From: Dyella psychrodurans
Lineage (GTDB): Bacteria; Pseudomonadota; Gammaproteobacteria; Xanthomonadales; Rhodanobacteraceae
NCBI RefSeq assembly: GCF_003363265.1
Contig: NZ_QRBF01000005.1
Coordinates: 62,001-126,000 of the forward strand
Reading direction: 5' to 3'
DNA length: 64,000 bases
How positions within the stretch are numbered: the first letter of the stretch is position 1; each line of letters opens with the position of its first letter. Under the pieces are notes generated by a model. The model saw only the letters and a program-made list of their open reading frames with translations. It had not been told where the DNA came from and made no database searches. The position numbers and the translations under genes were made by a program. Below, one piece after another: positions 38,734-59,379 of the stretch.

Positions 38734-40077
<1,344 letters not shown>

Positions 40078-42679: not shown

Positions 42680-42689
42680 GATGCGCACC

Positions 42690-44018: not shown

Positions 44019-44036
44019 GCTTTCGTCCTTCGCCGC

Positions 44037-45266
44037 TCAGACCGATCGCGTCGCCACGACCGGTGGCACAGCCGCGGCACGCAAGGCAGGACCAAGCACA
44101 GCCGCCTGTCCGATGGCCCAGAGCGTGACGGCTCCGATCGGGAAGTAAATCGCCGGCAACCGCGGCAACTCGTAGTGCATGATCAGGAACAGGTTGATGC
44201 CGTACGCGAGCACCATGCCGAGCGCGATACCGATCGTGGTCAACAGGAAGTTCTCGGTCTGGAAGTAACTGAGAATGTTGCGGCGCGTGGCACCCAGCGC
44301 ACGGCGCACGCCGATGCTGCGATTGCGCTGCGCCACCCAGAAGCTTGCGAGGCCGACGATACCGAGCGCGGTCACGACCAGGAGTGCGATGCATACGCCC
44401 AGGAGAATGCCGGCCATCGCGCGATCGTTCCGGAAGTAGTTGTGGCGCAGCTGGTCCTCGGTGCCCTTGTTCAGAACGATCCGATTGGGATCGAGCGCCT
44501 TCAGTTTCGCCAGTGCTTCCTTCAACACCTGGTCGCGATCCTGTGGCGCGCAGCGCAGCACATAAATCGCTCCCTGCGACATGGCGATGCGGATCGGATT
44601 GATCACGCTGTATTGGGCACCCTTTTCAAACTGATTCGGCCGCGCCAGTTGCTTGAGGACACCAACGACAGTCAGTGGAATGCCCTGCCCCACATACACC
44701 TGCTTGCCGAGCGGACTCTGACCGGGCCAAAGACGATTGGCGACGGCCTGGGTGACCAAGGCCGATTTCGGCAGTGCGTTGAGGTCTCCTTTTCTCAGAC
44801 CCGCGAATACCTTGTCGAGATCCTGGTATTCCTCGGGCTGAAAATCGCGTCCGGCGACAACCTGCAACCCATAGGTCTGCACCATGTTTTCGCCAAAGTA
44901 CTGCGCGGAGTTGATGGTGTCCTTCTGCTGGGTCTGATCGATGCGCAGGCCCATGTTGGACGATGAATCGCCAAAGGGAATCTGGTTCATCATCGTGACC
45001 GATTTCACGCCCGTGATCTGCCGAAGCGCCGCCACATCGGCGGCACTGCGCGCCATGCCGTCCGAAGGCATGCCGATATAGGCCATGTGAACGTAGACGA
45101 GTTCATGCTCGGCGATGCCCGTGGTCATGTCCATGCGCTCAAGACGCTGGCCGATCAGGAACACCGCATTGCAGACGATGGCGCAGGTCAGCGCGATTTC
45201 CGCAATCAACAGGCAGGCCGTGAACTTGTGCCGGCGCAACGTGGAAAGAATGGGCCGTATATCCAT
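44037..45266 (-). CDS. FtsX/MacB-type ABC permease, subtype A, pair 5
   Basis: A 409-residue permease starting MDIRPILSTLRRHK, with one helix (ACLLIAEIALTCAIVCNAVF), a periplasmic core, and FtsX-domain helices with GIVGLASFWVAQRNRSIGVRRALGATR. It ends in PPVVATRSV. The stop of its B partner lies 1 base upstream of this start, the tightest coupling in the array. AAGGGGA provides the ribosome site. The frame extends upstream to 45335 inside the partner gene, but homology fixes the start here. Confidence 0.9.
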   Translation of the reverse strand: MDIRPILSTLRRHKFTACLLIAEIALTCAIVCNAVFLIGQRLERMDMTTGIAEHELVYVHMAYIGMPSDGMARSAADVAALRQITGVKSVTMMNQIPFGDSSSNMGLRIDQTQQKDTINSAQYFGENMVQTYGLQVVAGRDFQPEEYQDLDKVFAGLRKGDLNALPKSALVTQAVANRLWPGQSPLGKQVYVGQGIPLTVVGVLKQLARPNQFEKGAQYSVINPIRIAMSQGAIYVLRCAPQDRDQVLKEALAKLKALDPNRIVLNKGTEDQLRHNYFRNDRAMAGILLGVCIALLVVTALGIVGLASFWVAQRNRSIGVRRALGATRRNILSYFQTENFLLTTIGIALGMVLAYGINLFLIMHYELPRLPAIYFPIGAVTLWAIGQAAVLGPALRAAAVPPVVATRSV

Positions 45267-45267
45267 A

Positions 45268-46572
45268 TCAGTTCCCCTTGAGCTGCAATGCCGGCGCCAC
45301 GTGGCAGGCACGCCACGCCGGTAGAAGACCGGCAATCAGACTTGCGCCGACGGCGATGATCAGCGTCGTCAACAACATGGCGATGTCCATGCGTGCCAGT
45401 TCTGCGTAGTCGGCAGGCTGCTGGCGAACCAGCCACAGGCCGAACAGTGCCAACAGCAAGCCACCCAAGCCACCCAGCAAGCCGACGACACCCGATTCGA
45501 TGAGCAACTGCCCGAACAATGCGCGCTGCGATGCGCCCAACGCGCGTCGCACACTCAGCTCGCTCGCGCGACGCATGAATTTGGCGAGCATCAAGCCCAC
45601 GGTATTGATCAGGCATACCGCGAGGAAACCAAGCGAAAGCCACATCTGCAGGCGCGTATCGCTCGGCACTACCTGCAGGTAATCCAGCCACTGCATCAGG
45701 TTGCGCAAACGTACATTCGGCGGACGCAGGAACCGTCCGGCGGTGTGCTGGTCCTGCGAATAATGTTCGAGAAAACTCTTGTAATCGGCCACGCTCGCCG
45801 GCGTATCAAGCTGCACCCAGAATTGCAGCCACGTGCAGTTCACCGTTTCCAGGTGCTCCGGGTCGCCGCCGGAATTGCCCCAGCAATCGGTGGAGCCGTC
45901 GTGTTCCATCTTCAGGTCGCGTGCCGTGGTCAACGGCAGATAGACGTCCTCGTCGCTCGCGTAGCTGCCCATGTACCACTCGTAAAAGTGCGGATTGGGA
46001 TGCCAGTCGCCCAGCACGCCGATGATGCGGAAGGCCGTTTCCTGCAATCGCAGCACCTGCCCGACGCTGTTCTTGCCACCGAACAACTTGTCGTTGAGCG
46101 ACGCGCTGATGACGGCGACGCGAGCCTTGCCCTCGTCTTCGGTGTCGACCCAACCCGTGCCGTACTTGAAGGGCACGCCGAACATGGGAAAGAAATCGGA
46201 ACTCGTATAAAGCGCGACGGCCTGGAACGGATCGACAGTCGATTGCGTCGGCTGCAACGGCACCATGCCGCCCGTCATCAGCGCTTGTCTTGCCGCACGC
46301 TTGGCGTGCAGGAGGTACATGCCGTCCACCCAGGACAACTGTTCCGGCGGCTCGACGTTTGGTCCGTAATCGACCATGTCGCGCGGATCGATCTGCGGGT
46401 AGTAGAGCGAACCGCTGCGCTGCGGCAGCGGATCGCCCGAAAGCACATGCAGCACCGTCAGCGTGGTCATGCAGGCGCCGATACCCAAGGCAATGGCGAG
46501 CACCATCAGCGCCGTCAGAGCCTTGTTGCGCTTGAGACTGCGAAAAGCAAGGTCAAAGTAATACGCGAACAT
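45268..46572 (-). CDS. FtsX/MacB-type ABC permease, subtype B, pair 5
   Basis: A 434-residue permease starting FAYYFDLAFRSLKRNKALT. The periplasmic core has LFGGKNSVGQVL and the cysteine pair STDCWGNSG...VNCTWLQFW. The FtsX part reads GLMLAKFMRRASELSVRRALGAS, slightly diverged from the EIGVRR pattern of the others. The protein ends in APALQLKGN, the subtype B ending. A clear AAGGAG precedes the ATG. It lies 13 bases after the A gene of pair 4. Confidence 0.9.
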   Translation of the reverse strand: MFAYYFDLAFRSLKRNKALTALMVLAIALGIGACMTTLTVLHVLSGDPLPQRSGSLYYPQIDPRDMVDYGPNVEPPEQLSWVDGMYLLHAKRAARQALMTGGMVPLQPTQSTVDPFQAVALYTSSDFFPMFGVPFKYGTGWVDTEDEGKARVAVISASLNDKLFGGKNSVGQVLRLQETAFRIIGVLGDWHPNPHFYEWYMGSYASDEDVYLPLTTARDLKMEHDGSTDCWGNSGGDPEHLETVNCTWLQFWVQLDTPASVADYKSFLEHYSQDQHTAGRFLRPPNVRLRNLMQWLDYLQVVPSDTRLQMWLSLGFLAVCLINTVGLMLAKFMRRASELSVRRALGASQRALFGQLLIESGVVGLLGGLGGLLLALFGLWLVRQQPADYAELARMDIAMLLTTLIIAVGASLIAGLLPAWRACHVAPALQLKGN

Positions 46573-46585
46573 GAGTACGCGCTCC

Positions 46586-47806
46586 TTATGTCGGCTGAGT
46601 TGCTACCACCGGTGGCACAGCGGCTGCGCGCATGGCTGGGCCGGATACCGCCACCTGCCCGATCAACCACAACGCGAGCGCACCGAACGGCAAGTAGTAC
46701 CAGGGCATGCGATCGAGTTCGTATTGCTTCATCAGGTAGAGATTGACGCCATAGGCCATCACCATGCCGAGCACCACGCCTGCCGAACTGAGCAGGAAGT
46801 TCTCGGTGCGGAAATAATTGAGAATGTCGGCGCGCGTCGCCCCGACTGCCCGGCGGATGCCAATCTGCCGACGACGCTGTCCGACCCAGAAACTGGTGAG
46901 GCCCACGATGCCGAACGCCGTCACGGCCAACATCACCGCGCACACAAGGACCAGAATCCACACCATGCTGTTGGTGTCTGCGTAGTACTTGTCGCGAATG
47001 GACTGGAAGGTGGCGCCCTTCACCACCGCCTGTGGACTCGTAGCCTGCAATTTCTCGACGGCCTGCTGCAGGACGCGATCGCGGTCGGCAGGCGTACTGC
47101 GCAACACATAGTTGCGCATCACATCATCGGCGCCGACGGGAAAGAAGGCGTTGTAGTAGGACTTGCTTTCGTTGCTTGTCCACAAACGGGGGCGCAACAC
47201 ATCAGCCACCACCCCAACAACGGTGTAATAGTTCGGCTTGGAATACAGCGTCTTGCCCAGCGCCGATTGGCCTGGCCAGAGTTGCTTGCTCAAGGCATCC
47301 GTAATGATGACGACGTGCGTGTTTGGCAATGCAGCATTGTTGATCGCGTTATCAACATATTCGCTGTCGTTGAAATACCGCCCCTCGCGCAGTTGCAGAC
47401 CCATCGCGCTCTGGAAATCCTGACCGACGAAATAGAGGGTGACGTTAGTGTTCTTCTGATCGGTGACAGACGAATCGGGCGTGATGCCGAAGCTCCAGCC
47501 CCAATTGTTGTTCGTCAGTGGAAGCGTGTGCACAACGCTCACGGCTTGTACGCCGGCAATCGAACGCAGCGCGGCGAGATTGCGCTGAGTATCACTGCCT
47601 ATCAACTTCGGATCGGTGCCTTGCAAGGACACCGAAACAAGCCCCTGTTCGTCCATGGCGTTGGAAAGTCGCATCTGCTTCACTCTTCCGCTGATCATGA
47701 ATACGGCATTGCAAAGCACGGCACATGCCAGTGCGATCTGCAGCACGATCAAGAGCGTCGGGATGCGGTGCTTTTTGAGGCTGGAAACAATCGGGCGAAT
47801 TTCCAT
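46586..47806 (-). CDS. FtsX/MacB-type ABC permease, subtype A, pair 4
   Basis: A 406-residue permease starting MEIRPIVSSLKKHR, with first helix TLLIVLQIALACAVLCNAVF, a periplasmic core, and FtsX-domain GIVGLTSFWVGQRRRQIGIRRAVGATR. It ends PPVVATQPT, a slightly changed subtype A ending. GAGGTGATT precedes the ATG. The frame is open upstream to 47989 within the partner gene, which I reject on homology. Its B partner ends 7 bases before the start. Confidence 0.9.
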   Translation of the reverse strand: MEIRPIVSSLKKHRIPTLLIVLQIALACAVLCNAVFMISGRVKQMRLSNAMDEQGLVSVSLQGTDPKLIGSDTQRNLAALRSIAGVQAVSVVHTLPLTNNNWGWSFGITPDSSVTDQKNTNVTLYFVGQDFQSAMGLQLREGRYFNDSEYVDNAINNAALPNTHVVIITDALSKQLWPGQSALGKTLYSKPNYYTVVGVVADVLRPRLWTSNESKSYYNAFFPVGADDVMRNYVLRSTPADRDRVLQQAVEKLQATSPQAVVKGATFQSIRDKYYADTNSMVWILVLVCAVMLAVTAFGIVGLTSFWVGQRRRQIGIRRAVGATRADILNYFRTENFLLSSAGVVLGMVMAYGVNLYLMKQYELDRMPWYYLPFGALALWLIGQVAVSGPAMRAAAVPPVVATQPT

Positions 47807-47813
47807 AATCACC

Positions 47814-49118
47814 TCAGGCAGCCTTGAGTTGAGGAGCTGGCGCCACGACACAGGCGCGCCAGGCGGGCAATAGTCCGGCGATGAGGCTGGCCACAAGCGC
47901 CACGGCAAATGTGACGAGGAACATTTCGACATCCAGGTGCGCGAGGCTCGCGTACTGGGCGGGCTGGTGTCGGACTCCCCATAGCCCAAGTACCGCCAGC
48001 ACTAGGCCCAGTACGCCACCCGCGACACCGACGATCGCCGCTTCAACCATGAACTGCGTAAAGATGTCGCGCCGGGTGGCACCCAATGCGCGGCGCACGC
48101 CGATCTCGCGCGAACGACGCAAACATTTCGCCAGCAGGAGACCTACCGTGTTGACGACGCAGATCAGCAAAAAGCCGAACGCCAGATAGGTTTGCAGTTT
48201 GGCGTCGTTGGGCACCACCTGTTGGTCGCTTAGCCAGCTCATCAGGTCCAGCAACGACGTTTCCGAACGCTTGAAGCGTCCCAGCGCCACTTGCTGCTTC
48301 GCGTAGCCATCGAGGAACATGCGGTAGTTGGCAACCGCCGTACTGTCGTCCAACTGCACCCACATGCCGAGCCACTCGCACGGCGCAGATTCCAGATGCT
48401 GGAGATCGCTGACCGACGCATAGCACTCCGTATCCTGCGGCCCCTTGTCCAGGGAACGTGCAGTCTTCAGTGGCATGAACACCGCATCGCCGTCGCCGTA
48501 ATCGTGGCCGCCCAGGTCCGTGGCATAAAAGCGAGGTTGCGGCGCCCAGTGCTTCAGCACGCCGACGATACGGAAGTCGCGATCGTCGATGCGTATCGTC
48601 TTGCCCACGCTATTGGCACCGCCGAACATCTTGTTGTTGAGAAAATCGGCGATTACGACCAGCGTTGCACGGCTTTCGTCGTCATCGGCGGTCCAGCCGC
48701 TTCCGTACTGAAATGGCGCATTGAACAGCGCGAAAAAATCCGCCGTCGTCATCACGCCATCCGCGAAATAAGGATGATCGTTGGGATGCTGCGTATCGAT
48801 CTTCGCGTCGATAAGCGCCATCGCAGCCTGCCGCACCGCACGATGCGCATGCATCAGGTTCATGGCATCGGTGTACGACATGATGCTATCGGGCTTGGTC
48901 TGCCCCGGGACATAGCCTTCCAACGGATTGGGATCCACGCGCGCATAGAAAAGGTTTGCGCTCTTCTCCGGCAGCGGATCGCCAGACAGCAGCTTCAGCA
49001 CGGTCAACGTGGTGATCGACGCGCCAATACCGAGCGCAAGCGTCACGATCATCAGTGCCGTAAGAATCTTGTTGCGCCTGAGACTTCGCACAGCAAGATC
49101 GAGATAGTAACCAAGCAT
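47814..49118 (-). CDS. FtsX/MacB-type ABC permease, subtype B, pair 4
   Basis: A 434-residue permease starting MLGYYLDLAVRSLRRNKIL. The periplasmic core has MFGGANSVGKTI and the cysteine pair TECYASVSD...SAPCEWLGMW. FtsX-domain text is GLLLAKCLRRSREIGVRRALGATR, with an extra Cys. It ends APAPQLKAA. GGGAGGGG lies just upstream of ATG 49118; the open frame reaches 49520 but runs into the A gene of pair 3. It is the first member of the second set of pairs in transcription order. Confidence 0.9.
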   Translation of the reverse strand: MLGYYLDLAVRSLRRNKILTALMIVTLALGIGASITTLTVLKLLSGDPLPEKSANLFYARVDPNPLEGYVPGQTKPDSIMSYTDAMNLMHAHRAVRQAAMALIDAKIDTQHPNDHPYFADGVMTTADFFALFNAPFQYGSGWTADDDESRATLVVIADFLNNKMFGGANSVGKTIRIDDRDFRIVGVLKHWAPQPRFYATDLGGHDYGDGDAVFMPLKTARSLDKGPQDTECYASVSDLQHLESAPCEWLGMWVQLDDSTAVANYRMFLDGYAKQQVALGRFKRSETSLLDLMSWLSDQQVVPNDAKLQTYLAFGFLLICVVNTVGLLLAKCLRRSREIGVRRALGATRRDIFTQFMVEAAIVGVAGGVLGLVLAVLGLWGVRHQPAQYASLAHLDVEMFLVTFAVALVASLIAGLLPAWRACVVAPAPQLKAA

Positions 49119-49162
49119 TGCACCCCTCCCAAGGTAGACTTCCATGTAAAGAAAAGCTCGCG

Positions 49163-50419
49163 TTACACCGATCTCGTCGCCACCACTGGCGGCACGTTCG
49201 AAGCGCGACGCGCAGGAACGAATACCGCAATTTGCCCAAGCACCATTACCACGAGCAAGCCAAGAAGCACGTAGTACACGGGCAAACTCTGCATCTCGAA
49301 CTTGCTCATGAGCAGGCGATTCAAACCGATCGCCATCACAACACCGACGACCGCACCGACACCGGCAATCATCAGGTTCTCCAGCTGGAAGTAATGCAAG
49401 ATGTCGATCTTGCGCGCGCCCAGCGCACGCCGCACGCCGATCTGGCGATGCCGCTGTCCGACCCAGAAACTGGTCAGGCCGACGATTCCCGCTGCGGTGA
49501 CCGCAAGCAGAATCAGGCACACCACGCCCATCAGCACCGCCATGCCGATGTCCGCCCGGTAAGCATCGCCGCGGATATCGCCGAACCGCTTGACGCCGTC
49601 GTCTTCATCGATCACACGCAACGGATTGCCGTTGTAAAGCGCCGCGGCGGCAGTGCGCGCCACGGCGTCCAGCTGACCCGGCCGCGTGCGTACGGCGTAG
49701 CGTGAGAACGTCGCATTGATCCGGAACGGCATCAAGGTCGAGTACCAGGTGAAGTTGTCGCCCCAGCCGACGGCCGGCGTCTGCATGCGCCTGACCACGC
49801 CGATGATCGTGCTGGGCGTGCTGCTGCCATCGAAATAAACCACCTTCCCCACCGCTGAGCCATCAGGGAACAGCCGTTTGGCCAAATCTTGGGTCACGAT
49901 GACAATCGGCGGCTCGCCCTGGTCGCGCATGCCTTTGTGGGCGATTTCGGATGCGTTGAAATTGCGTCCTTCAACGATCTGCAGTCCGAGCGTTCCGATC
50001 ATCTGCTCGTCGCCGAAGTACATGGCGGTGTGTACATCGTTCTTCCCCGGCGTCTGCTCGCCAGGCTTCACGGCAACGCCTCCCACCCAACTCGAATTGA
50101 GCAAGGGCAACGAGGTGATCGACGTGACCGACGTGACATCCGGCTGACGCCTGAGCGTATCGAGATCCTGACGGAGCATGCTGTCGAGCTGCTGCACGCC
50201 CGCCGGCGTATCCATGCTCGGCGCCCCCACCCATTGCTGGGTGATCAGCAGCAGATTGCTTTCGTCGATGCCCGTCGGCCGGTGCACCTTCTCCACGCGG
50301 CTGTAGATGATGAACACCGCGTTGCACACGATCGCCAGCGTCAGGGCGATCTGCAAGGCAATCAGCACGACGCCGGCCTTGTGTTTGCGTAGCGCTGCAA
50401 GAATGGGATGGAGGCTCAT
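49163..50419 (-). CDS. FtsX/MacB-type ABC permease, subtype A, pair 3
   Basis: A 418-residue permease, the longest A subunit, starting MSLHPILAALRKHKAGVVLI. The first helix is followed by the set 1-3 signature RPTGIDESNLL. The FtsX domain contains GIVGLTSFWVGQRHRQIGVRRALGARK, and the protein ends PPVVATRSV. AAGGACA precedes the ATG. Its B partner ends 16 bases upstream. Confidence 0.9.
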   Translation of the reverse strand: MSLHPILAALRKHKAGVVLIALQIALTLAIVCNAVFIIYSRVEKVHRPTGIDESNLLLITQQWVGAPSMDTPAGVQQLDSMLRQDLDTLRRQPDVTSVTSITSLPLLNSSWVGGVAVKPGEQTPGKNDVHTAMYFGDEQMIGTLGLQIVEGRNFNASEIAHKGMRDQGEPPIVIVTQDLAKRLFPDGSAVGKVVYFDGSSTPSTIIGVVRRMQTPAVGWGDNFTWYSTLMPFRINATFSRYAVRTRPGQLDAVARTAAAALYNGNPLRVIDEDDGVKRFGDIRGDAYRADIGMAVLMGVVCLILLAVTAAGIVGLTSFWVGQRHRQIGVRRALGARKIDILHYFQLENLMIAGVGAVVGVVMAIGLNRLLMSKFEMQSLPVYYVLLGLLVVMVLGQIAVFVPARRASNVPPVVATRSV

Positions 50420-50435
50420 GAGCGTGTCCTTGTCC

Positions 50436-51761
50436 TCAGTTCGACTTCAGCTGCCAGGCGGGCTGAACGCGCGAGGCACGGAAAGTGGGGTAGATGCCGG
50501 CGAGCATGGTGGACACCACGGCGACCACCAGCGTCAGCAGCAGAAGCTCGAAGTCCAGATGCGCAAGGTTCGCGATGTCCTTCGGCAGAACCCAGCTCAC
50601 GCTATGAATGCCGATGCCGGTCAACAAAAGACCGAGCACGCCGCCGCTCAGGCCGACGATTCCCGCCTCGACCATGAATTGCGCATAGATCGCCGCGCGC
50701 GGCGCACCGATGGCGCGGCGAACACCGATTTCGTTACTGCGGCGCAGGAACTTCGCCAGCAGCAGGCCCGCCGTATTCACCAGGCAAACCACCAGCAGGC
50801 CGATGGCCACCAGCAGCGACACCTCGGTATCGGTGGGAACCACATGTTCCGCGTCGAGCCAATCGTGCAGATTGCGCAAGCGATTGTTCGGCGCCCAGGC
50901 GAAGCGACCGGAATGCTGTTGCTCGCGGGCGTAACCGTCCAGGTAGTCCTTATAGGTCTTGGCATCGGCCGTGCTGTCCAACTGGGCCATGTAGCTGATC
51001 CAGATGCACGACGAAAGCTGCAGCCCCTTGAAGCCCGACTGCGCGGGTATTTCGGAACAGTTGGTGTTGCCGTCGTTGGCCATGCTCACATCGATGGCAC
51101 GCATGAACGGAATGAACAAATCATCGGCGTTGGTGGTGAAACCGCCGGTGTTGACCACGTCGTAAAAGCGCGGTTGGGGCGCCCACTTGTTCAGCACGCC
51201 GACGATGCGATAGTCCTTGCCATCGACATCGATGATCTTGCCCACGCTGTTGGCGCCGCCGAACAGCTTCTGATCGAGCTTTTCGCTGATGACCACCACG
51301 GCCGCGCGCTGCTCGTCGTCGGCCGCGCCCCAGCCGCTGCCGTATTTGAACGGCGCATCCGTCATGGCGAAGAACTCGTTGAAGACCGCATGCCCCATGA
51401 CATTGATGGGATGCTTGCCCGCCTCGGACGGCACGACCGACGGCGTGATCATGTACATCGCCGACTGGTACTTGGCGCGGTGATCGCGCATCAGCGCGAT
51501 GGCGTCGGTGTAGTCGAGCGCATCCGGCGGATCGCCGTTGTCCCCGGCACCGCCGTGTCCTTTCGGCCCCCACATTTCAATCTGCGGCACGTAAAGCTGC
51601 GACGACTTCCATGGAATGGGATCGCCCGACACCGCGCGAAACACGGAGTACGTGACCATGGACGCAGCCACGCCAAACCCCACCGTGAGTATCATCAACA
51701 GCGTAAGTCCGGGACTTCGCTTGAGACTGCGTACCGCCAGATCAATGTAATACCCCAACAT
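50436..51761 (-). CDS. FtsX/MacB-type ABC permease, subtype B, pair 3
   Basis: A 441-residue permease starting MLGYYIDLAVRSLKRSPGL. After the first helix it has MVTYSVFRAVSGDPIPWKSS, the signature of pairs 1-3. The periplasmic core has LFGGANSVGKII and the cysteine pair NTNCSEIPA...LSSCIWISY. FtsX-domain text is GLLLAKFLRRSNEIGVRRAIGAPR; the end is PAWQLKSN. The first helix is diverged at SPGLTLLMIL compared with the NPxLTALM of the other members. Confidence 0.9.
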   Translation of the reverse strand: MLGYYIDLAVRSLKRSPGLTLLMILTVGFGVAASMVTYSVFRAVSGDPIPWKSSQLYVPQIEMWGPKGHGGAGDNGDPPDALDYTDAIALMRDHRAKYQSAMYMITPSVVPSEAGKHPINVMGHAVFNEFFAMTDAPFKYGSGWGAADDEQRAAVVVISEKLDQKLFGGANSVGKIIDVDGKDYRIVGVLNKWAPQPRFYDVVNTGGFTTNADDLFIPFMRAIDVSMANDGNTNCSEIPAQSGFKGLQLSSCIWISYMAQLDSTADAKTYKDYLDGYAREQQHSGRFAWAPNNRLRNLHDWLDAEHVVPTDTEVSLLVAIGLLVVCLVNTAGLLLAKFLRRSNEIGVRRAIGAPRAAIYAQFMVEAGIVGLSGGVLGLLLTGIGIHSVSWVLPKDIANLAHLDFELLLLTLVVAVVSTMLAGIYPTFRASRVQPAWQLKSN

Positions 51762-51810
51762 GGGCGCCTCCCTCATTGTGTTGATGACTCTCTCGCGAGA
51801 GCTTCGTCCT

Positions 51811-53037
51811 TCAAACTGATCGCGTTGCTTCCACAGGCGGTACGTTGGATGCACGCAGCGCAGGCGCCAGCACGGCACACTGCCCCAGCAACAGCAACGT
51901 CACCACCCCGGCCAGCACATACCCCGGTGCCAGCCGAGCCATTTCAAACTGTTTCATCAGCCAAAGATTCAATCCCAACGCGAGTACGCCGCCGAGCAGC
52001 ACGCCGCCCACGCCGATCAGCAAGTTTTCGGTAAGGAAGTAGCTGAGAATGTCGTGGCGCGTCGCGCCCAACGCACGGCGCACGCCAATTTGCTTGCGCC
52101 GCTGCCCGACCCAGAAACTGGTAAGCCCGACGATACCTGCTGCGGTGATCGCCAGAAGAATCACGCTGATCGACGCCATCAGGATGGCCATGCCGCGGTC
52201 GCTCTTATAGGCCTGCGCGCGCACCTGCGCGAAAGTCTTCACGCCATCTTCGGGGCTTATCACCCGCAGACGGTTGGCCGCATACAACGCCGCGCGCACG
52301 CGCTTGGCGACATCGTCCAACTGACCTGGCTGCGCGCGGACCACGTAGTTGGTCGGCGTGACCAGCTGATGGAACGGCATCAACGTCGAGCAATCGGACC
52401 ATTGCGCCATCGCGCTGTCGACATATGGCGTCTGCATGCGTTCGACCACGCCGATGATGATGCTCGGCTTGTCGCTGACATATGCCATCTTTCCGACCGC
52501 CGACTCGCCGGGGAACAAACGCCTGGCCAGCTCGCTGGTAATGATGAGAACCTGCGGCGCGATCTTGTCGCGCCCGCCAATCTCGCCGATTTCGTCGGAT
52601 CGGAAGTTACGCCCTGCCACAAGCTTGAGCCCAAGTGTGGGCAGCGCATTTTCGTCCGCGAAGTAAATCGCGGTGTTGGAGACGAAATTCAGCTTGTCCG
52701 GGCTATGGCCGATACCGTACGTAATACCGCCGCTGCTCAACGGATATCCATCGGTTGCATAAGCATTGGCTACGCCTGGAACCTTGCGCAGCGTCGCCAG
52801 ATCATCCGCCAACAACGACGATATGTCGCCTTTCGTAGGTTTGTTGGCCCACTGATTCTGGATAACGAGCAAATGGCTTTCGTCCAGCCCGGTCGGTTGC
52901 GAAAGATGCGCCAGCCGCTGATGGATGATGAATAAAGCGTTGCAGACGATTGCCAACGTCAGCGCGATCTGCAACGCAATCAGCAAGGTACCAGCCTTGT
53001 GATGCTTGAGCGTGGCGAGGATGGGTCGGATCTGCAT
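51811..53037 (-). CDS. FtsX/MacB-type ABC permease, subtype A, pair 2
   Basis: A 408-residue permease starting MQIRPILATLKHHKAGTLLI. Its first 60 residues are nearly the same as those of the pair 1 A gene (IALQIALTLAIVCNALFI, then PTGLDES), pointing to a recent duplication. FtsX-domain text is GIVGLTSFWVGQRRKQIGVRRALGATR; the end is PPVEATRSV. ATG 53037 is preferred over ATG 53043 because the GAGG site is about 8 bases away and it aligns with the other A starts. Confidence 0.9.
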   Translation of the reverse strand: MQIRPILATLKHHKAGTLLIALQIALTLAIVCNALFIIHQRLAHLSQPTGLDESHLLVIQNQWANKPTKGDISSLLADDLATLRKVPGVANAYATDGYPLSSGGITYGIGHSPDKLNFVSNTAIYFADENALPTLGLKLVAGRNFRSDEIGEIGGRDKIAPQVLIITSELARRLFPGESAVGKMAYVSDKPSIIIGVVERMQTPYVDSAMAQWSDCSTLMPFHQLVTPTNYVVRAQPGQLDDVAKRVRAALYAANRLRVISPEDGVKTFAQVRAQAYKSDRGMAILMASISVILLAITAAGIVGLTSFWVGQRRKQIGVRRALGATRHDILSYFLTENLLIGVGGVLLGGVLALGLNLWLMKQFEMARLAPGYVLAGVVTLLLLGQCAVLAPALRASNVPPVEATRSV

Positions 53038-53047
53038 CGTCATCGCC

Positions 53048-54364
53048 TCAATGGGATTTCAGCTGCCACGCGGGTTGCACGCGCGACGCCCGCCATGTCG
53101 GATAGAACGCGGCGCCCAGTGTCGCGACCAGCGAGCAAAGCAAGGTCAGCCCCACCAGGCCAAGATTGATATGTGCGAGTCGGGCAATGTCAGGCTCAAA
53201 CACCAGGCCGACGCCAAGCACTCCCAACCCGGTGAGCATCACACCGGCCAGCCCGCCACTTACGCCTACGATGGCCGCCTCGGCCAGATACTGAAGCCAT
53301 ATTTCCCGTCGCGACGCACCCAGCGCACGGCGCACACCGATTTCCCCCGCGCGACGCATGAACTTGGCCAACATCAGACCGACCGTGTTTACAAGGCAAA
53401 CCAGAAGAAAACCTAGCGATAGCACGAGTGAGATGCGCGTCTCCGGCGGGACGACGCGTTCGTAATCCATCCATTCAGTCAAATTGCGCAGCGTTACATA
53501 TGACGGCCAGTGAAAACGTCCCGCCTGGCGCTGTTCATCGGCATAGCCAAGCAGGTAGCTGCGATAGGCGCGCACGGCTGCCGCATCCGGCAGCTCAACC
53601 CAATAGGACACCCATGCACATTCCGATTGCAGCCATCCGTCGAACCCAGGCTTCCTCCCACCGCTTCCAAAGCAGTTGTCGTTGCCGGCCGTTTCGGTCT
53701 GCGTGTCGATCGCCCGGGTGAACGGCAGGAAGAAATCGGGTGGATCGGTAAATCCGCTGGAATTATTCACATCGTAGAAGCGAGGCCGCGGATTCCAATC
53801 CGCTGCCACGCCGATCACCTGGTAATCATGGTCATCCAGATGCACCGTCTGGCCGACGCTATTCGCACCGCCGAACAATTGCTGATTGAGCTTGCTGCTG
53901 ATAACAACCACGGTAGCGCGCGCCTCATCCTGCGCGGCGTTCCAGCCGCTGCCATAGAGGAAAGGCACCTCGAACATTGGGAAAAAGTCGGCGTAGGCGG
54001 CATAGCCGCTGACAGCGAACGGTTCCCGGGCAGCATCGCGCGGCACCAGCGTGAAGCCCACCGGATAGATGGCCGTCTGACGCGCGGCCTTGTGTTCGTG
54101 CATCAGGGCCGTGGCATCTTTATAAGTCAGCGCATCAGGAATATCTCGTCCCCGCGCGCGACTATCCGGCCCCCATACGTCGATCTGGGGTGCGAACAGC
54201 TGCGTCGATTTGTCGGGCAACGGATTGCCCGACACGGCACGGAACACCGCGTAAGTGGTCATCGACGACGCCACACCGAAACCGACGGCCATCACCATCA
54301 AAGCCGTCAGGATCGGATTGCGCCGCAGGCTATGCAGACCAAGTCGCAGGTAATAGGCGAGCAT
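53048..54364 (-). CDS. FtsX/MacB-type ABC permease, subtype B, pair 2
   Basis: A 438-residue permease starting MLAYYLRLGLHSLRRNPILT. The core carries TYAVFRAVSGNPLPDKS, LFGGANSVGQTV and the cysteine pair NDNCFGSGG...QSECAWVSYW. FtsX-domain text is GLMLAKFMRRAGEIGVRRALGASR; the end is PAWQLKSH. It closely resembles the pair 1 B gene, including the RLGLHSL start and the FEPDIARLAH loop near the end. Confidence 0.9.
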   Translation of the reverse strand: MLAYYLRLGLHSLRRNPILTALMVMAVGFGVASSMTTYAVFRAVSGNPLPDKSTQLFAPQIDVWGPDSRARGRDIPDALTYKDATALMHEHKAARQTAIYPVGFTLVPRDAAREPFAVSGYAAYADFFPMFEVPFLYGSGWNAAQDEARATVVVISSKLNQQLFGGANSVGQTVHLDDHDYQVIGVAADWNPRPRFYDVNNSSGFTDPPDFFLPFTRAIDTQTETAGNDNCFGSGGRKPGFDGWLQSECAWVSYWVELPDAAAVRAYRSYLLGYADEQRQAGRFHWPSYVTLRNLTEWMDYERVVPPETRISLVLSLGFLLVCLVNTVGLMLAKFMRRAGEIGVRRALGASRREIWLQYLAEAAIVGVSGGLAGVMLTGLGVLGVGLVFEPDIARLAHINLGLVGLTLLCSLVATLGAAFYPTWRASRVQPAWQLKSH

Positions 54365-54403
54365 GCAGCCCTTACTCCCCTCTCAATGTGAAACGTTGCG
54401 TGT

Positions 54404-55639
54404 TCATGCCGGACGCGTCGCCTCCACCGGTGGTACGCGCGAAGCGCGCAATGCAGGTGCGAATACCGCGCCCTGGCCGAGCACGATCAGCAACACCACC
54501 CCGCTCAGCACGTAGGTCAGCGGCATGATCCCCAGTTCGAAGCGCGTCACCAGCCACAGATTCAGGCCGAAGGTCAGCACGATGCCGACCCCAATGCCGC
54601 CGACGCTGATCAACAGGTTCTCGGTAAGGAAGTAATGCAGGATGTCGCGATGCGTTGCGCCGAGCGCGCGGCGCACGCCGATCTGCCGGCGACGCTGCCC
54701 CACCCAGAAGCTGGTGAGTCCGACGATGCCCGCGCCCGTAATGGCCAACAACACCACGCAGATGATGCCCATCAGGATGGCCATGCCGCGATCGCTGTCG
54801 TAGGCGCGTCGACGCACCTGCGCAAAGCTCATCAGGCCGTCCTTGGGATTGATGATGCGCATGCGGTTGGCCGCGTACAGCGCCTTGGGCGCCTCCTGCA
54901 TCGCCGCTGCCAGCTGGCCCGGCTTGGCACGCACGATGTAGAACACACCCAGGGGCGATGCATCGCGTATGGGCCATACCATCGACTGTTCCGCATACGG
55001 GATGGCCCAGGCGCCAAGACGCGAGCGCTGCATCGTTTCGACGATACCGACGATCGTCACCGGCGTGCTGCTCATGGAGTAGAAGCTTTTGCCCAGCGCA
55101 TCGCCGTTCGGATACAACTTGTCCGCCATGGCCTTGCTGATGATGGTGACCGGCGGCACCACCACGTCACGCTGACCCGCGTCCTTGACTTCGTCGGCGC
55201 GGAAATCGCGTCCGGCGATCAGCTTCAATCCGAGCGTGTGCAGGAAATGCTCGTCGCCGGAATAGACCGTTGCATCGGTGGTGGGCTCGACCTGGTCGAC
55301 CTTGAGCGTAATGAAATTGTCGCTGCCGCCGACGGTCGACAACGGGTAACTGTCGCTTTGCGTGGCGTCCTGCACCGCCGGCAGGTTGCGCAGCGTGGCC
55401 AGATCCTGCTCTACGTTGGCCGCGGCCTGCTGCTTGTTGTACTGCTCTCCCCACATGTTTTCGATCACGAAGACATTCGATTCATCGACGCCGGTGGGCT
55501 CGGCGATATGCGCGAGGCGCTGGTGAATGATGAACAGCGCGTTGCACACGATCGCGAGCGTCAACGCGATCTGCAGTGCGATCAGCAAGGTGCCCGCCTT
55601 GTGTTTGCGGAGCGCGGCGAGAATGGGTTGGATATGCAT
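54404..55639 (-). CDS. FtsX/MacB-type ABC permease, subtype A, pair 1
   Basis: A 411-residue permease starting MHIQPILAALRKHKAGTLLI, with the same first helix as the pair 2 A gene and EPTGVDESNVFVI after it. FtsX-domain text is GIVGLTSFWVGQRRRQIGVRRALGATH; the end is PPVEATRPA. GGAG lies 8 bases before ATG 55639; a second ATG at 55645 is too close to that site. Its B partner ends 15 bases upstream. Confidence 0.9.
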   Translation of the reverse strand: MHIQPILAALRKHKAGTLLIALQIALTLAIVCNALFIIHQRLAHIAEPTGVDESNVFVIENMWGEQYNKQQAAANVEQDLATLRNLPAVQDATQSDSYPLSTVGGSDNFITLKVDQVEPTTDATVYSGDEHFLHTLGLKLIAGRDFRADEVKDAGQRDVVVPPVTIISKAMADKLYPNGDALGKSFYSMSSTPVTIVGIVETMQRSRLGAWAIPYAEQSMVWPIRDASPLGVFYIVRAKPGQLAAAMQEAPKALYAANRMRIINPKDGLMSFAQVRRRAYDSDRGMAILMGIICVVLLAITGAGIVGLTSFWVGQRRRQIGVRRALGATHRDILHYFLTENLLISVGGIGVGIVLTFGLNLWLVTRFELGIMPLTYVLSGVVLLIVLGQGAVFAPALRASRVPPVEATRPA

Positions 55640-55654
55640 GCTCATTTCTCCGCC

Positions 55655-56965
55655 TCAATTCGATTTCAGCTGCCAGGCCGGCTGTACCTGCGCGGCACGC
55701 CACGCCGGATAGACCGCCGCCACCACCGTCGCGACGACGGCGACCGCCACGGTCAGTGCCACCAGCGAAATATCCAGATGCGCCAGCCGCGCGATCTCCG
55801 GTTCGAACAACAACCCGACGCCGGACATGCCTGCCGCGGTCAGCAGCAATCCCACGATGCCTCCGGCCAGACCGACCGAACCGGCCTCCACCAGATACTG
55901 CGAGTAAATTTCATGCCGGGTCGCGCCGAGCGCGCGGCGCACGCCGATCTCTCCGGCCCGGCGCATGAACTTCGCCAGCAGCAAGCCGATCGTGTTGACC
56001 AGGCAGATCACCAGGAAGCAAAGCGCCACCACCAGCGAGATGCGGCTTTCCTCCGGTATCACATGCTGCTTCTCCAGCCATTGCGGCACGTCGTCCAGGC
56101 GCACATTGGGGGCCCAGCCATAGCGTCCGGCGCGCTGCTGATCGGCGGCATAGCCCTCGATAAACTGCCGGTAGCGCGCCACGTCGGCAGACGTATTGAG
56201 TTCCACCCACGGCATCAGCCATATGCAGTTGCTTTGCAGCCACTCGTCCCAGCTCCTGAATGTCAGGTGCCCGCGGCAGCTGTTGCGACCGGTGTTGTCG
56301 ATTTTCAGATCGAGCGCGCGATTGAGCAGCAGGAAGAAATCCGGCGGATCGCCAAAACCGCTCTCGCCCCACACGGCGTAGAAGCGCGGACTCGGGTTCC
56401 AATGCCCGGTGATGCCCACCACGCGATAGTCATGGCCGGAAAGGGTGATTTCGCGCCCCACGCTGTTGGCACCGCCGAACATGCGCTGGTTGAAAGAGTC
56501 GGAGATCACCACATCCGCGGCGCGGCTGTCGTCGTCGGCATTGCTCCAGGCGCTGCCATACAAAAACGGCACGTCGAACATCGGGAAGAAATCGCCGGTC
56601 ACCGCATAGCCCGTCGCCTGGCTTGGAACGCTGTTGGCATCATGCGGCAGCGCGGAAAGCATCAGCGAGTAGATCAAAGTCATCCGCGAGGACTGGTGGG
56701 CCCGCATCAACGCCATCGCGTCGACATAATTCAAAGCGCCCGGCGGCTCGCCATGGTCATTTTGTTGCGGCCCCCAGCTGTCTATCAGCGGCACGAACAG
56801 CTGCGACGACTTTTCCGGTATCGGATCGCCGGACACCGCGCGAAACACCGAATACGTCACCATCGACGCCGATACGCCAAAAGCAATCGCCATGACCATC
56901 AACGCGGTAAGCGCAGGGTTGCGCTTCAAGCTGTGCAAGCCGAGTTGTAGGTAGTAGTTGAACAT
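55655..56965 (-). CDS. FtsX/MacB-type ABC permease, subtype B, pair 1
   Basis: A 436-residue permease, the first permease of the operon, starting MFNYYLQLGLHSLKRNPALT. The periplasmic core has TYSVFRAVSGDPIPEKSSQL, MFGGANSVGREI and the cysteine pair RNSCRGHLT...QSNCIWLMPW. FtsX-domain text is GLLLAKFMRRAGEIGVRRALGATR; the end is PAWQLKSN. The ribosome site is weak (GGGATC). A 117-base gap with a 9-bp hairpin separates it from the ATPase gene. Confidence 0.9.
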   Translation of the reverse strand: MFNYYLQLGLHSLKRNPALTALMVMAIAFGVSASMVTYSVFRAVSGDPIPEKSSQLFVPLIDSWGPQQNDHGEPPGALNYVDAMALMRAHQSSRMTLIYSLMLSALPHDANSVPSQATGYAVTGDFFPMFDVPFLYGSAWSNADDDSRAADVVISDSFNQRMFGGANSVGREITLSGHDYRVVGITGHWNPSPRFYAVWGESGFGDPPDFFLLLNRALDLKIDNTGRNSCRGHLTFRSWDEWLQSNCIWLMPWVELNTSADVARYRQFIEGYAADQQRAGRYGWAPNVRLDDVPQWLEKQHVIPEESRISLVVALCFLVICLVNTIGLLLAKFMRRAGEIGVRRALGATRHEIYSQYLVEAGSVGLAGGIVGLLLTAAGMSGVGLLFEPEIARLAHLDISLVALTVAVAVVATVVAAVYPAWRAAQVQPAWQLKSN

Positions 56966-57082: not shown

Positions 57083-57805
57083 TCAGCCGCGTACTTGGCC
57101 GGCGGCTGCGGTATAGGCGGTGTGGAAGCGCGGATCTTCCGCGAGATCCACCACCTGGCCGTCGATGATGTGCACGTTGCGCTGCGCGCGTGCGGCCAGT
57201 TCCGGATCGTGCGTCACCATCACGATGGTGGCGCCTTCGCGGTGGATTTCTTCCAGCAGTTCCAGCACGCCGCGCGCCATCTGCGTATCCAGGTTGCCGG
57301 TCGGTTCGTCGGCGAGCAGCAAACGCGGACTGCCGGCAAGCGCACGGGCAATGGCGACGCGCTGCTGCTGACCGCCGGAGAGTTCGGCCGGATAATGCTT
57401 GGCGCGCGAAGCGAGGCCCACGCGCTCCAGCGCATTCATGATGCGCTCCTTGCGTTCGGGCGTCTTCATGCCGCGATAGCGCAGCGGCACTTCGACGTTG
57501 TCGAACACATTCAGATCGGGAATCAGGTTGAAGGCCTGGAAGATGAAGCCGATCTTTTCGTTGCGGATCTTCGAGCGCGCATTGTCATTGAGCTGGCTCA
57601 CTTCCATGCCATCGAGGTGATACTCGCCGCCCGTGAAGGTTTCCAGCAGGCCGGCGATGGTGAGGAAGGTGGTCTTGCCCGAACCGGACGGACCGGTCAC
57701 GGCCACGAACTCGCCTTCTTTCACGTCGATGTTGAAGTCGCGGAGCGCGTAGGTTTCCACCACTTCGGTGCGATAGACCTTGGAGAGATGCGTCATCTTC
57801 AGCAT
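57083..57805 (-). CDS. ABC transporter ATPase, MacB/LolD type
   Basis: A 240-residue nucleotide-binding subunit. Walker A is GPSGSGKTTFL near residue 38, Q-loop in FIFQAFNLIPDLNV, signature LSGGQQQRVAIARAL, Walker B LLLADEPTGNLD, H-loop VMVTHDPELAA. The DEPTGNLD and FQxFNLIP motifs are typical of ATPases that work with FtsX/MacB-type permeases (MacB, LolD, FtsE). It is the only ATPase gene next to twelve permeases. ATG 57805 gives a standard N-terminus; the frame extends to 57892. Confidence 0.93.
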   Translation of the reverse strand: MLKMTHLSKVYRTEVVETYALRDFNIDVKEGEFVAVTGPSGSGKTTFLTIAGLLETFTGGEYHLDGMEVSQLNDNARSKIRNEKIGFIFQAFNLIPDLNVFDNVEVPLRYRGMKTPERKERIMNALERVGLASRAKHYPAELSGGQQQRVAIARALAGSPRLLLADEPTGNLDTQMARGVLELLEEIHREGATIVMVTHDPELAARAQRNVHIIDGQVVDLAEDPRFHTAYTAAAGQVRG

Positions 57806-57934: not shown

Positions 57935-59206
57935 TCAGCGACTGATCACGACACGCTGCGCGCCTTTGAAGTTGTCGGTACCGGAGATCACGATGTTGTC
58001 GCCTTCTTTCAGGCCATCGAGGATTTCCACTTTGTCGATGCTGCTTTCGCCGGCGCGGATGGGCGTCTTGGTGGCGATGCCGTCGCGCACGACGTAGGCG
58101 TAGCTGCCGCCGGATTCGTCGACAAACGAACCGCGCTGCACGGTGAGCACGTTCTCGCGATGGTCGAGCAGGATGCGCACGGAAAGGCGCTGGTTCTGGC
58201 GCAGCTGCTTGGGTGTGCTGCCATCGAAACGCACGCGCGCAGCGACTTCGCCGTTGACGACTTCAGGCGAGATGGCGCTGACGATGCCCTTCCAGTTGTT
58301 GTCGTTGCCGCTGATCTCACCCGTCATGCCAATGGCGAGATCGCGCGCGAAACTTTCCGGCACCTTCACTTCCACCTCGAGCGCGGACAGATCGATCACG
58401 CTGAGCAGTTGCGCGTCCTTCGCGACAGTCGCGCGTTCGGCGATGAAAAGCTGGCCGACCTGACCATCGACCGGCGAGCGCACATTGAGGTTGTCGACCT
58501 GGCGCTTCAAATCCTGCACCAACAGGACCTGACGATCATGCGCGAGCTTCTTCGCCTGGATGTCGAAGTTGCCAGTGTTGTTGTTGAGGTTGAGATCCGA
58601 TTGAGCATGCTGCAGCGCGATATCGGCCTTTTCGACCGCGTCTTTGGCGCGGTCGACATCCATCTGCGGAACACCGCCCTGCGTATACGCTTTTTGATAG
58701 CGATCCAGATCGCGCTTGGCGGTCTGGTCGTCGATCTTGGCGTTGTCATACGCCTTCTGCATCTGCGACTTTTGCTTGAGCGCATCGTTCTGCGCGCGCA
58801 GGTAATCCACTTCCATCGCATCGGCGTTGGATTCTTCCTGAGCGAGCTTGTTGACGAGCTCCGGGCTGTCGATCACGGCCAGGACCTGGCCCTTCTTTAC
58901 CGTGTCGCCGGCATGCACCTGCAAGGTGACCGCGCCGCCATACGTGGCATACATCGTGGGGCTGACCGCCGCGACCACCTGGCCTTCCGCCGCGATATCG
59001 CGCACGAACGGGCCGCGCTCCACGGTGGCGAAGGCAAGGCGCGAGGCGCTGACGGATGCGTCGGCCGAGAACAGTCGCGCAATGCCGGGCAAGACGAGCG
59101 CCAGCACGATCAAGGCCGCCACGCCGCCGCCTATCCACAGCAGCTTCTTCTTGCGGCTCGGCTTGACCTGGATCAGTCGGTCCTGCGCTGAAGTATCACG
59201 AATCAT
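57935..59206 (-). CDS. HlyD/MacA-type periplasmic adaptor subunit
   Basis: A 423-residue membrane-fusion protein. A short basic N-terminus is followed by one membrane anchor (LLWIGGGVAALIVLALVLPG, residues 23-43). A split lipoyl/barrel-sandwich region begins with GAVTLQVHAGDTVKKGQVLA, an alpha-helical hairpin spans about 125-240, and the second lipoyl half is VRSPVDGQVGQLFIAERATV. A beta-barrel and a membrane-proximal domain end the protein. It would connect the permease to an outer-membrane TolC-type channel, for which no gene is seen here. It is the first gene after the sigma-54 promoter. Confidence 0.92.
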   Translation of the reverse strand: MIRDTSAQDRLIQVKPSRKKKLLWIGGGVAALIVLALVLPGIARLFSADASVSASRLAFATVERGPFVRDIAAEGQVVAAVSPTMYATYGGAVTLQVHAGDTVKKGQVLAVIDSPELVNKLAQEESNADAMEVDYLRAQNDALKQKSQMQKAYDNAKIDDQTAKRDLDRYQKAYTQGGVPQMDVDRAKDAVEKADIALQHAQSDLNLNNNTGNFDIQAKKLAHDRQVLLVQDLKRQVDNLNVRSPVDGQVGQLFIAERATVAKDAQLLSVIDLSALEVEVKVPESFARDLAIGMTGEISGNDNNWKGIVSAISPEVVNGEVAARVRFDGSTPKQLRQNQRLSVRILLDHRENVLTVQRGSFVDESGGSYAYVVRDGIATKTPIRAGESSIDKVEILDGLKEGDNIVISGTDNFKGAQRVVISR

Positions 59207-59250
59207 GGTGAAGTCCCTGGCCGCGGACAGTGCGGCCCCACACCCTTCTC

Positions 59251-59266
59251 AGCAATCTGCGTGCCA
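59251..59266 (-). promoter_or_regulatory. Consensus sigma-54 (-24/-12) promoter of the exporter operon
   Basis: Read on the minus strand the sequence is TGGCACG-CAGA-TTGCT, matching TGGCACG-N4-TTGCW at all specified positions, with ten bases between the GG and GC dinucleotides. Transcription would start near 59240, about 34 bases before the adaptor ATG at 59206. rpoN and an NtrC-family activator are both in this window. Confidence 0.85.
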
Positions 59267-59332: not shown

Positions 59333-59377
59333 TGTCCGCGGACACTTGGCCGGACAAATGGACAGGCCGCGCGGACA
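59333..59377. promoter_or_regulatory. TGTCC/GGACA operator array, putative activator-binding site
   Basis: A perfect 12-bp palindrome TGTCCGCGGACA sits at 59333-59344, followed by three more GGACA half-sites at 59352, 59360 and 59373. Another GGACA lies at 59225. The palindrome centre is about 98 bases upstream of the inferred start of transcription, the usual place for an NtrC-type enhancer. The neighbouring activator gene is the obvious candidate to bind it. Confidence 0.6.
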
Positions 59378-59379
59378 GG

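Follow-up and report, generated by a model that had tools for sequence, protein, structure and literature searches.

In the 64,000-nt window of Dyella psychrodurans DNA analyzed here (contig NZ_QRBF01000005.1, positions 62,001 to 126,000), an adaptor gene, one ATPase gene, twelve MacB/FtsX permease genes (six A/B pairs), a hydrolase gene, and the genes for an activator and a kinase make up an array that stands behind an apparent -24/-12 promoter (Table 1). The question raised by this locus is whether that promoter is a genuine sigma-54 promoter and, if so, what switches it and which other genes answer to the same switch.

The promoter ahead of the adaptor gene

The initial annotation had claimed a full match to the sigma-54 consensus on the minus strand, and this claim is borne out: TGGCACGCAGATTGCT has no mismatches to TGGCACGNNNNTTGCW. 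It has the GG at -24, the GC at -12, and the fixed spacing by which sigma-54 promoters are judged, and the -24/-12 convention gives the same transcription start that had been proposed, near 59240. The site had been placed correctly, upstream of the adaptor gene; however, 44 nt (59250-59207), and not the 45 claimed, separate it from the ATG at 59206.

Sites with up to two mismatches number 20 in the window, compared to 17.3 expected from shuffled sequences. Since the degenerate motif thus occurs at chance frequency, it was rejected as evidence, and only the perfect match and its conservation can carry the claim. The promoter is the sole site without a mismatch within the window, and the perfect motif occurs seven times in the 4.54-Mb genome (its reversed pattern once); at four of these seven perfect sites, a palindrome is lacking within about 1.5 kb, and two of the four are in apparent flagellar regions. 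Among comparison windows stepped across the 64-kb sequence itself, in which the last 110 bp was scored, a perfect site was found in 0 of 2,362 and a site with one mismatch in 2 of 2,362. The 53 nearest adaptor orthologues (adaptor identity of at least 66%, our own genome included) carry a perfect site in 45 cases, one mismatch in 5, and two mismatches in 3. Within the genus as grouped here (16 genomes, our own included), the sigma-54 site and the upstream palindrome discussed below are both perfect in 16/16 genomes, with a spacing of 78 bp, and among distant members of the family, with adaptors that are 51 to 57% identical, 13 of the 14 genomes read (from 16 such genomes) have a sigma-54 site with no more than one mismatch. 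It is extremely improbable that the -24/-12 match arose by chance in G+C-rich DNA, a reading that the chance frequency of degenerate matches might favor but that we rejected because of the 0/2,362 comparison windows with a perfect match and the conservation of the perfect site in 45/53 orthologues. The promoter is almost certainly real. A sigma-70-like match between the palindrome and the promoter (59311-59282, minus strand) was also seen; such matches are no more common than in shuffled sequences.

The annotation had also linked the exporter to RpoN and to an activated, all-or-none type of control. The link to RpoN and the dependence on an activator are well supported by the sequence; however, "all-or-none" is an over-reading, since the need of sigma-54 promoters for an activator does not equal bimodality. 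The rpoN gene is the only sigma-54 gene found in the genome (one PF04552 match) and lies within the window, about 46 kb from the adaptor promoter. Similarly, the description of the promoter as heading an exporter operon fits the gene arrangement, because, as far as the last permease, the genes share one direction and the gaps between them are no longer than 132 nt, but one transcript spanning 18 kb is only putative. Counts of internal sigma-70 promoters (3, compared to 6.2 in shuffled sequences) and terminators (20, compared to 16.4, with a standard deviation of 4.7) in the array were uninformative.

Table 1. Features of the 64-kb window, in order of position
Feature	Position	Strand	Remarks
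rpoN	11882..13363	+	PF04552 E 1.6e-69, match at 12881-13354
Histidine kinase (HAMP, HATPase_c), probable activator partner	37251..38630	-	AtoS-like by NCBIfam, below cutoff
NtrC-type sigma-54 activator: receiver, AAA+ with GAYTGA, Fis HTH	38734..40077	-	Start ATG 40077
Alpha/beta hydrolase, proline-iminopeptidase type	40249..41424	-	PF12146 71.7 bits; start ATG 41424
Permease B6	41462..42688	-	Pfam scan; start uncertain, GTG 42688 or ATG 42679
Permease A6	42690..44018	-	Placed by 42-51% identity to other A permeases
Permease B5	44037..45266	-	Placed by 42-46% identity to other B permeases
Permease A5	45268..46572	-	Pfam scan
Permease B4	46586..47806	-	Pfam scan; start examined
Permease A4	47814..49118	-	Pfam scan; start examined
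Permease B3	49163..50419	-	Pfam scan
Permease A3	50436..51761	-	Pfam scan; start examined
Permease B2	51811..53043	-	Pfam scan; 57% identical to B1
Permease A2	53048..54364	-	Pfam scan; 57% identical to A1
Permease B1 (MacB_PCD + FtsX)	54404..55645	-	Matches C-terminal half of ADOP TIGR03434
Permease A1 (MacB_PCD + FtsX)	55655..56965	-	Matches N-terminal half of ADOP TIGR03434
Separate ABC ATPase (LolD/MacB/DarD-like)	57083..57805	-	PF00005 111.6 bits; ATG 57805 with Shine-Dalgarno
HlyD/RND-type periplasmic adaptor	57935..59206	-	PF16576 48.8 bits; TIGR01730 127.5 bits, cutoff 94.9
Stem-loop GGCCGC-N7-GCGGCC, predicted mRNA 5' end	59219..59237	-	Directly before Shine-Dalgarno AGGGA
Sigma-54 (-24/-12) promoter TGGCACG-N4-TTGCT	59251..59266	-	Predicted +1 at 59240; 0 mismatches
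Palindrome, probable enhancer site (UAS) of activator	59333..59344		78 bp upstream of -24 element
Further TGTCC half-sites upstream of palindrome	59350..59379		Seen in sequence; by eye in many relatives

Pfam scans covered 10 of the 12 permeases, with B5 and A6 assigned via identity; the A permeases are 42 to 57% identical to one another, the B permeases 37 to 57%, and A to B only 22 to 30%. By eye, the N terminus of the hydrolase resembles a signal peptide, and a gene of G018 that resembles the hydrolase has its own palindrome and sigma-54 pair (L161). Across 27 named loci, adaptor identity is 91% for Dyella dinghuensis and ranges from 76 to 91% for most of the other contigs of Dyella, Rhodanobacter, and Frateuria. 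The distance from the adaptor gene to the activator gene, both in the same direction, ranges from 3.4 to 35.5 kb, with a median of 13.8 kb, in 61 of 71 family genomes; the genomes left out had no close adaptor (G037 and G068), no close activator listed (G013), the two genes on different contigs (G009, G030, G039, G046, and G053), an adaptor in pieces (G056), or the two genes on one contig but 1.2 Mb apart on opposite strands (G023). Based on this range, the number of permeases seems to vary widely (genes were counted in our own genome only), and the permease array (41462-56965 in the window, and its counterparts in relatives) appears to expand and contract while the promoter ahead of it stays the same.

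The leader of the adaptor mRNA

The predicted adaptor mRNA would begin with a stem-loop. Across 53 leaders, 87.1% of the stem cells pair, compared to 21 to 39% in slid versions. Double-change cells in the stem number 17, compared to 4.8 (standard deviation, 1.9) after shuffling, and 0 of 500 shuffles had a count as high, although related sequences inflate double-change counts in such an alignment; likewise, 0 of 500 shuffles reached the covariation score of the stem. Pairs in which any double change occurs (5, compared to 3.1, with 49/500 shuffles as high) do not exceed the range of the shuffles in number, and RNAalifold kept four pairs, its covariation term being just -0.08. Folding energy failed as support for the stem, since the mean z of the 53 adaptor leaders (-0.21) is no better than that of shuffles; the z values of three micropeptide leader classes are positive. 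By eye, 8 of the 53 leaders have no such stem (L050, L053, L054, L062, L063, L064, L065, and L070), and L066, L067, and L071 have a different stem. Rows kept in this set include one leader that extends 2 nt too far (G017, L052) and three that match from residue 2 and include the start codon (L061, L068, and L069). Some leaders of the 67-aa micropeptide class (L200, L201, and similar ones) seem, by eye, to have a short stem near the start, e.g., GGACC...GGTCC; their folding energy is unremarkable.

A 5'-terminal stem is known to protect the ompA mRNA, and by analogy we propose that the stem described here may protect the long exporter mRNA. Alternatively, the element may act at the DNA level, as an additional activator site close to the start point, and not as an RNA hairpin. 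The element in our genome does contain TGTCCGCGGCCA, one mismatch from the palindrome, and a folding energy no better than that of shuffles would suit a DNA site; however, in other genera both sides of the stem change together while the upstream palindrome stays fixed. On balance, we regard the DNA site as unlikely, if by no means negligible.

The palindrome and its candidate activator

The palindrome TGTCCGCGGACA has no mismatch in 51 and a single mismatch in 2 of the 53 nearest orthologues. It lies 67 to 96 bp from the -24 element, and 76 to 81 bp from it in 46/53, and a palindrome and sigma-54 site with at most one mismatch each were found together in 0 of 2,362 comparison windows. Among the 14 distant family members (adaptor identity of 51 to 57%), 7 have a palindrome with 0 to 2 mismatches, and the other 7 have none at this threshold. 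Outside the family, 23 genomes of the order were read, and six of them (G073, G082, G091, G099, G106, and G112) have a sigma-54 site with 0 to 2 mismatches together with a palindrome with 0 or 1; among the 12 of these order genomes with an adaptor identity of 44% or less, only G073 keeps both, the other 11 having at least three mismatches in both elements.

The product of the array's activator gene matches PF00158 (220.8 bits), PF00072 (74.5 bits), and PF02954 (42 bits), all above the cutoff. The kinase gave no separate HisKA match in the Pfam scan; by eye, its H-box histidine is readable in the sequence. The adaptor and activator genes share a contig in 63 family genomes, and in 61 of these the activator gene lies downstream of the adaptor gene with the same orientation; the remaining two are G023, the exception, and G056, which was left out because its adaptor is in pieces. 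The 12-residue helix of the activator's helix-turn-helix motif is identical in 30/30 close activators read and in 12/20 distant activators; among the other 8 distant ones, 7 differ only in ending with RRL instead of RRM, and the helix of the G118 activator reads LGLTRQSLYRRM. Our own genome encodes four other full activators, and their helices are different. The activator query extended 25 codons beyond the probable ATG (40077) on the upstream side, a probable cause of the stop codons flagged within some activator matches.

As judged from these sequences, we are fairly confident that the activator encoded in the array switches the promoter through the palindrome. The palindrome could instead be bound by another regulator, with the array activator working elsewhere. 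Of 30 genomes read, 18, including our own, also have an exact palindrome 160 to 163 bp ahead of pcm (14 of 15 genomes within the genus), and no sigma-54 site with two or fewer mismatches was found within 400 bp of these 18 pcm palindromes, so that the palindrome may have another use or another binder. The 7/14 distant family members that keep the promoter but not the palindrome point in the same direction, as does the nature of the evidence for binding by the activator, which is a correlation between a conserved helix and a conserved site. Against another regulator stand the near-fixed spacing between the palindrome and the sigma-54 site (79 bp at 67 of the 91 micropeptide promoters described below), the position of the activator gene behind the adaptor gene in 61/63 genomes, and the activator helix, which is almost as invariant as the palindrome itself. 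We therefore consider another regulator improbable and retain the array activator as the candidate. The pcm palindrome of our own genome is at C16:37447 (L112:1501-1512), where, by eye, a TolC-like gene then follows; in G067, the full palindrome and sigma-54 pair is found ahead of pcm (L154).

The micropeptide genes and a probable shared switch

When defined as an exact palindrome followed after 48 to 76 bp by the sigma-54 motif, the pair was found in 52 of 119 relatives and its reversed pattern in none. It was found in 0 of 364 genomes of the same class outside the order; the class sample comprised 369 genomes, and its matches were our own genome and one family member. The search in relatives gave 82 sites, of which 49 were tallied as the main adaptor promoter. 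The other 33, sorted by eye, precede 19 micropeptide genes, 10 A-type permease genes outside the main array, and 1 each of a second adaptor gene, a hydrolase homologue, pcm, and a transposase-like gene. The focus of the initial annotation on the exporter was consequently too narrow, since the promoter signature also stands ahead of micropeptide genes and of detached permease genes in relatives. By eye, the detached A-type permeases with their own pair are those of L163, L165, L171, L178, L179, L180, L255, L256, L259, and L260. The second adaptor start, with both the pair and the leader stem, is that of L262 (G053), where the reading frame ends after 43 aa and is apparently broken. In our own genome, the exact pattern matches only the array and the C10 peptide gene; at the other peptide promoters, a single mismatch falls in the palindrome or in the last base of the motif.

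The micropeptides start with MKFE (or MKLE, MKYE, and similar) and have the consensus MKFETLMLxSLFxACxLxCxLTLGAMLx. A protein profile search blind to the promoter gave 124 matches in 71 genomes, although the profile may be biased toward promoter-bearing members, because it was built from peptides found via sigma-54 promoters. The 113 matches with an E value of 1e-7 or better were examined, and 11 weaker ones (E values of 3.4e-7 to 0.1) were dropped. Upstream of 91 of these 113 genes there is a sigma-54 site with 0 or 1 mismatch and, at 69 to 81 bp, a palindrome with 0 to 2 mismatches; the spacing is exactly 79 bp in 67/91. Of the remainder, 21 lie in tandem, no more than 350 bp from another peptide gene, and the last one combines a sigma-54 site that has two mismatches with a palindrome that has one, at a spacing of 79 bp. 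The same combination of sites was present in 0 of 3,403 control windows from the 64-kb sequence. A first random-window control, with 248/3,840 windows passing, was discarded because those loci contain real sites.

The 91 peptides with a promoter fall into three length classes, of 27 to 29 aa (37 peptides), 43 to 53 aa (28 peptides), and 62 to 73 aa (26 peptides), and many members of the longest class have a two-cysteine tail such as CALPPDGVVCPR. Our own genome has five MKFE genes (C4:1721, C4:1853, C10:166542, C12:383435, and C2:114158), all outside the window, which lies on contig C12; four have the pair, and one stands in tandem behind another, the tandem being that on C4. Searches with MKFE peptides found no family in NCBIfam (two peptides; E value of 0.001) or in Pfam (three peptides; E value of 1); the peptides searched did not include a 28-aa copy. 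The profile search revealed peptides in 33 of 43 family genomes and, at an E value of 1e-7, in 0 of 28 order genomes. The ten peptide-free family genomes have an adaptor identity of 69% or less, and the peptide-bearing ones have an adaptor identity of at least 71%, with the exception of G037. This genome keeps an MKFE gene with its promoter (L322) but, as judged by search score, lacks a close adaptor and a close activator; its transposase-like gene also carries the pair (L155), which may be due to chance. In L170 and L261, a secreted-looking protein, possibly a beta-lactamase-like hydrolase as judged by eye, is encoded downstream of an MKFE gene.

Small, hydrophobic, multicopy, and often tandem peptides might also be toxins of type-I-like toxin-antitoxin systems, or selfish repeats, with nothing but the promoter in common with the exporter. 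This explanation is quite improbable, as all 113 copies have either the exporter-type pair (one of them a weaker version) or a tandem position, and the peptides occur in 33/43 family genomes and, G037 apart, only where the adaptor is at least 71% identical. With the same pair ahead of both, the exporter and the micropeptides look like one switchable regulon, and we conclude that they very likely are.

How this regulon would work can be envisioned as follows. The kinase would sense a signal and phosphorylate the activator, which would then bind the palindrome and the flanking half-sites, oligomerize, and loop to the holoenzyme, so that transcription of the array starts. The output would comprise the adaptor, the single ATPase, the six A/B permease pairs, the hydrolase, and possibly, by read-through, the activator and kinase themselves. 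The same activator would turn on scattered genes that have the same enhancer and spacing, namely, those for the MKFE membrane peptides and, in relatives, those for extra permeases and a hydrolase. It is with considerable confidence that we propose the core of this scheme, a genuine sigma-54 promoter with a palindromic enhancer that is switched by the two-component activator and kinase of the array. The peptides would most likely be coexpressed partners (small subunits) or cargo of the exporter, two roles that together we rate at somewhat below an even chance. More tentative still is the suggestion of a family-wide regulon in which an expandable exporter is combined with single-helix MKFE peptides that act as interchangeable subunits or cargo and retune the choice of permease pair, with the 5' stem protecting the mRNA.

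In several respects the system resembles those of the NtrC/AtoC/ZraR type: it has a -24/-12 element, an activator with receiver, AAA+, and Fis domains, an adjoining kinase gene, and an upstream palindromic site at about the distance of 100 to 150 bp that the available part of PMC7057263 gives for enhancers. It differs in that the activator loop reads GAYTGA where the NtrC type has GAFTGA, a tyrosine at this position being recorded for a small number of instances in the same part of that source (PMC7057263), in that the activator gene is about 18 kb downstream of the promoter, and in that one palindrome is common to micropeptide genes across the genome.

The exporter itself is related to several known types. 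Compared with ADOP (TIGR03434), A1 resembles the N-terminal half and B1 the C-terminal half (the two proteins compared), but here the halves are two separate genes, scoring 172.5 (A1) and 186.1 (B1) bits, below the cutoff of 622.3. In addition, the array has ATPase and adaptor genes, whereas ADOPs are described as orphans. The best NCBIfam model for the ATPase is DarD of the darobactin exporter DarBCD, and the adaptor also matches the DarC and MacA models; however, the scores are below the equivalog cutoffs (DarC, 80.1 of 450; DarD, 255.8 of 375 bits), as are those for the MacA and MacB models of MacAB-TolC. The MacB model has the ATPase and permease in one chain, whereas the ATPase gene here is separate (57083-57805), and unlike both DarBCD and MacAB-TolC, the array combines twelve permease genes with one ATPase gene. 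The micropeptides may be likened to the AcrZ/KdpF type, with which they would share a single hydrophobic stretch, a length of about 28 aa in the shortest class, and coregulation with a transporter. Unlike that type, the MKFE peptides form a family of paralogues that fall into three length classes and are served by several promoters per genome.

A link between such permeases and sigma-54 promoters is known in outline, since the available part of a 2025 PLoS One study (PMC12316311) reports enrichment of sigma-54 promoters at COG0577 MacB/FtsX permeases in gamma-Proteobacteria, Opitutia, and Bacteroidia. That part contains no enhancer palindrome, permease array, micropeptide, or leader stem, and the words Dyella, Xanthomonad, and small protein are absent from the main text. 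A 2011 study tied sigma-54 to the bacterial exterior, and its available part does not describe the palindrome, arrays, or peptides (PMC3162934). No description of the regulon, the peptides, or the palindrome, including its exact string, was found in the literature searched, and the micropeptide regulon appears to be new.

In conclusion, through the shared promoter signature, one two-component activator can be linked, in a testable way, to a large array of MacB/FtsX-type permeases and to a family of micropeptides that annotation may miss, because many members are only 28 aa long. Since the 79-bp enhancer spacing is nearly fixed, membership in the regulon is predictable from sequence in related genomes, and coregulation provides a first clue to the roles of both the peptides and the permease pairs.
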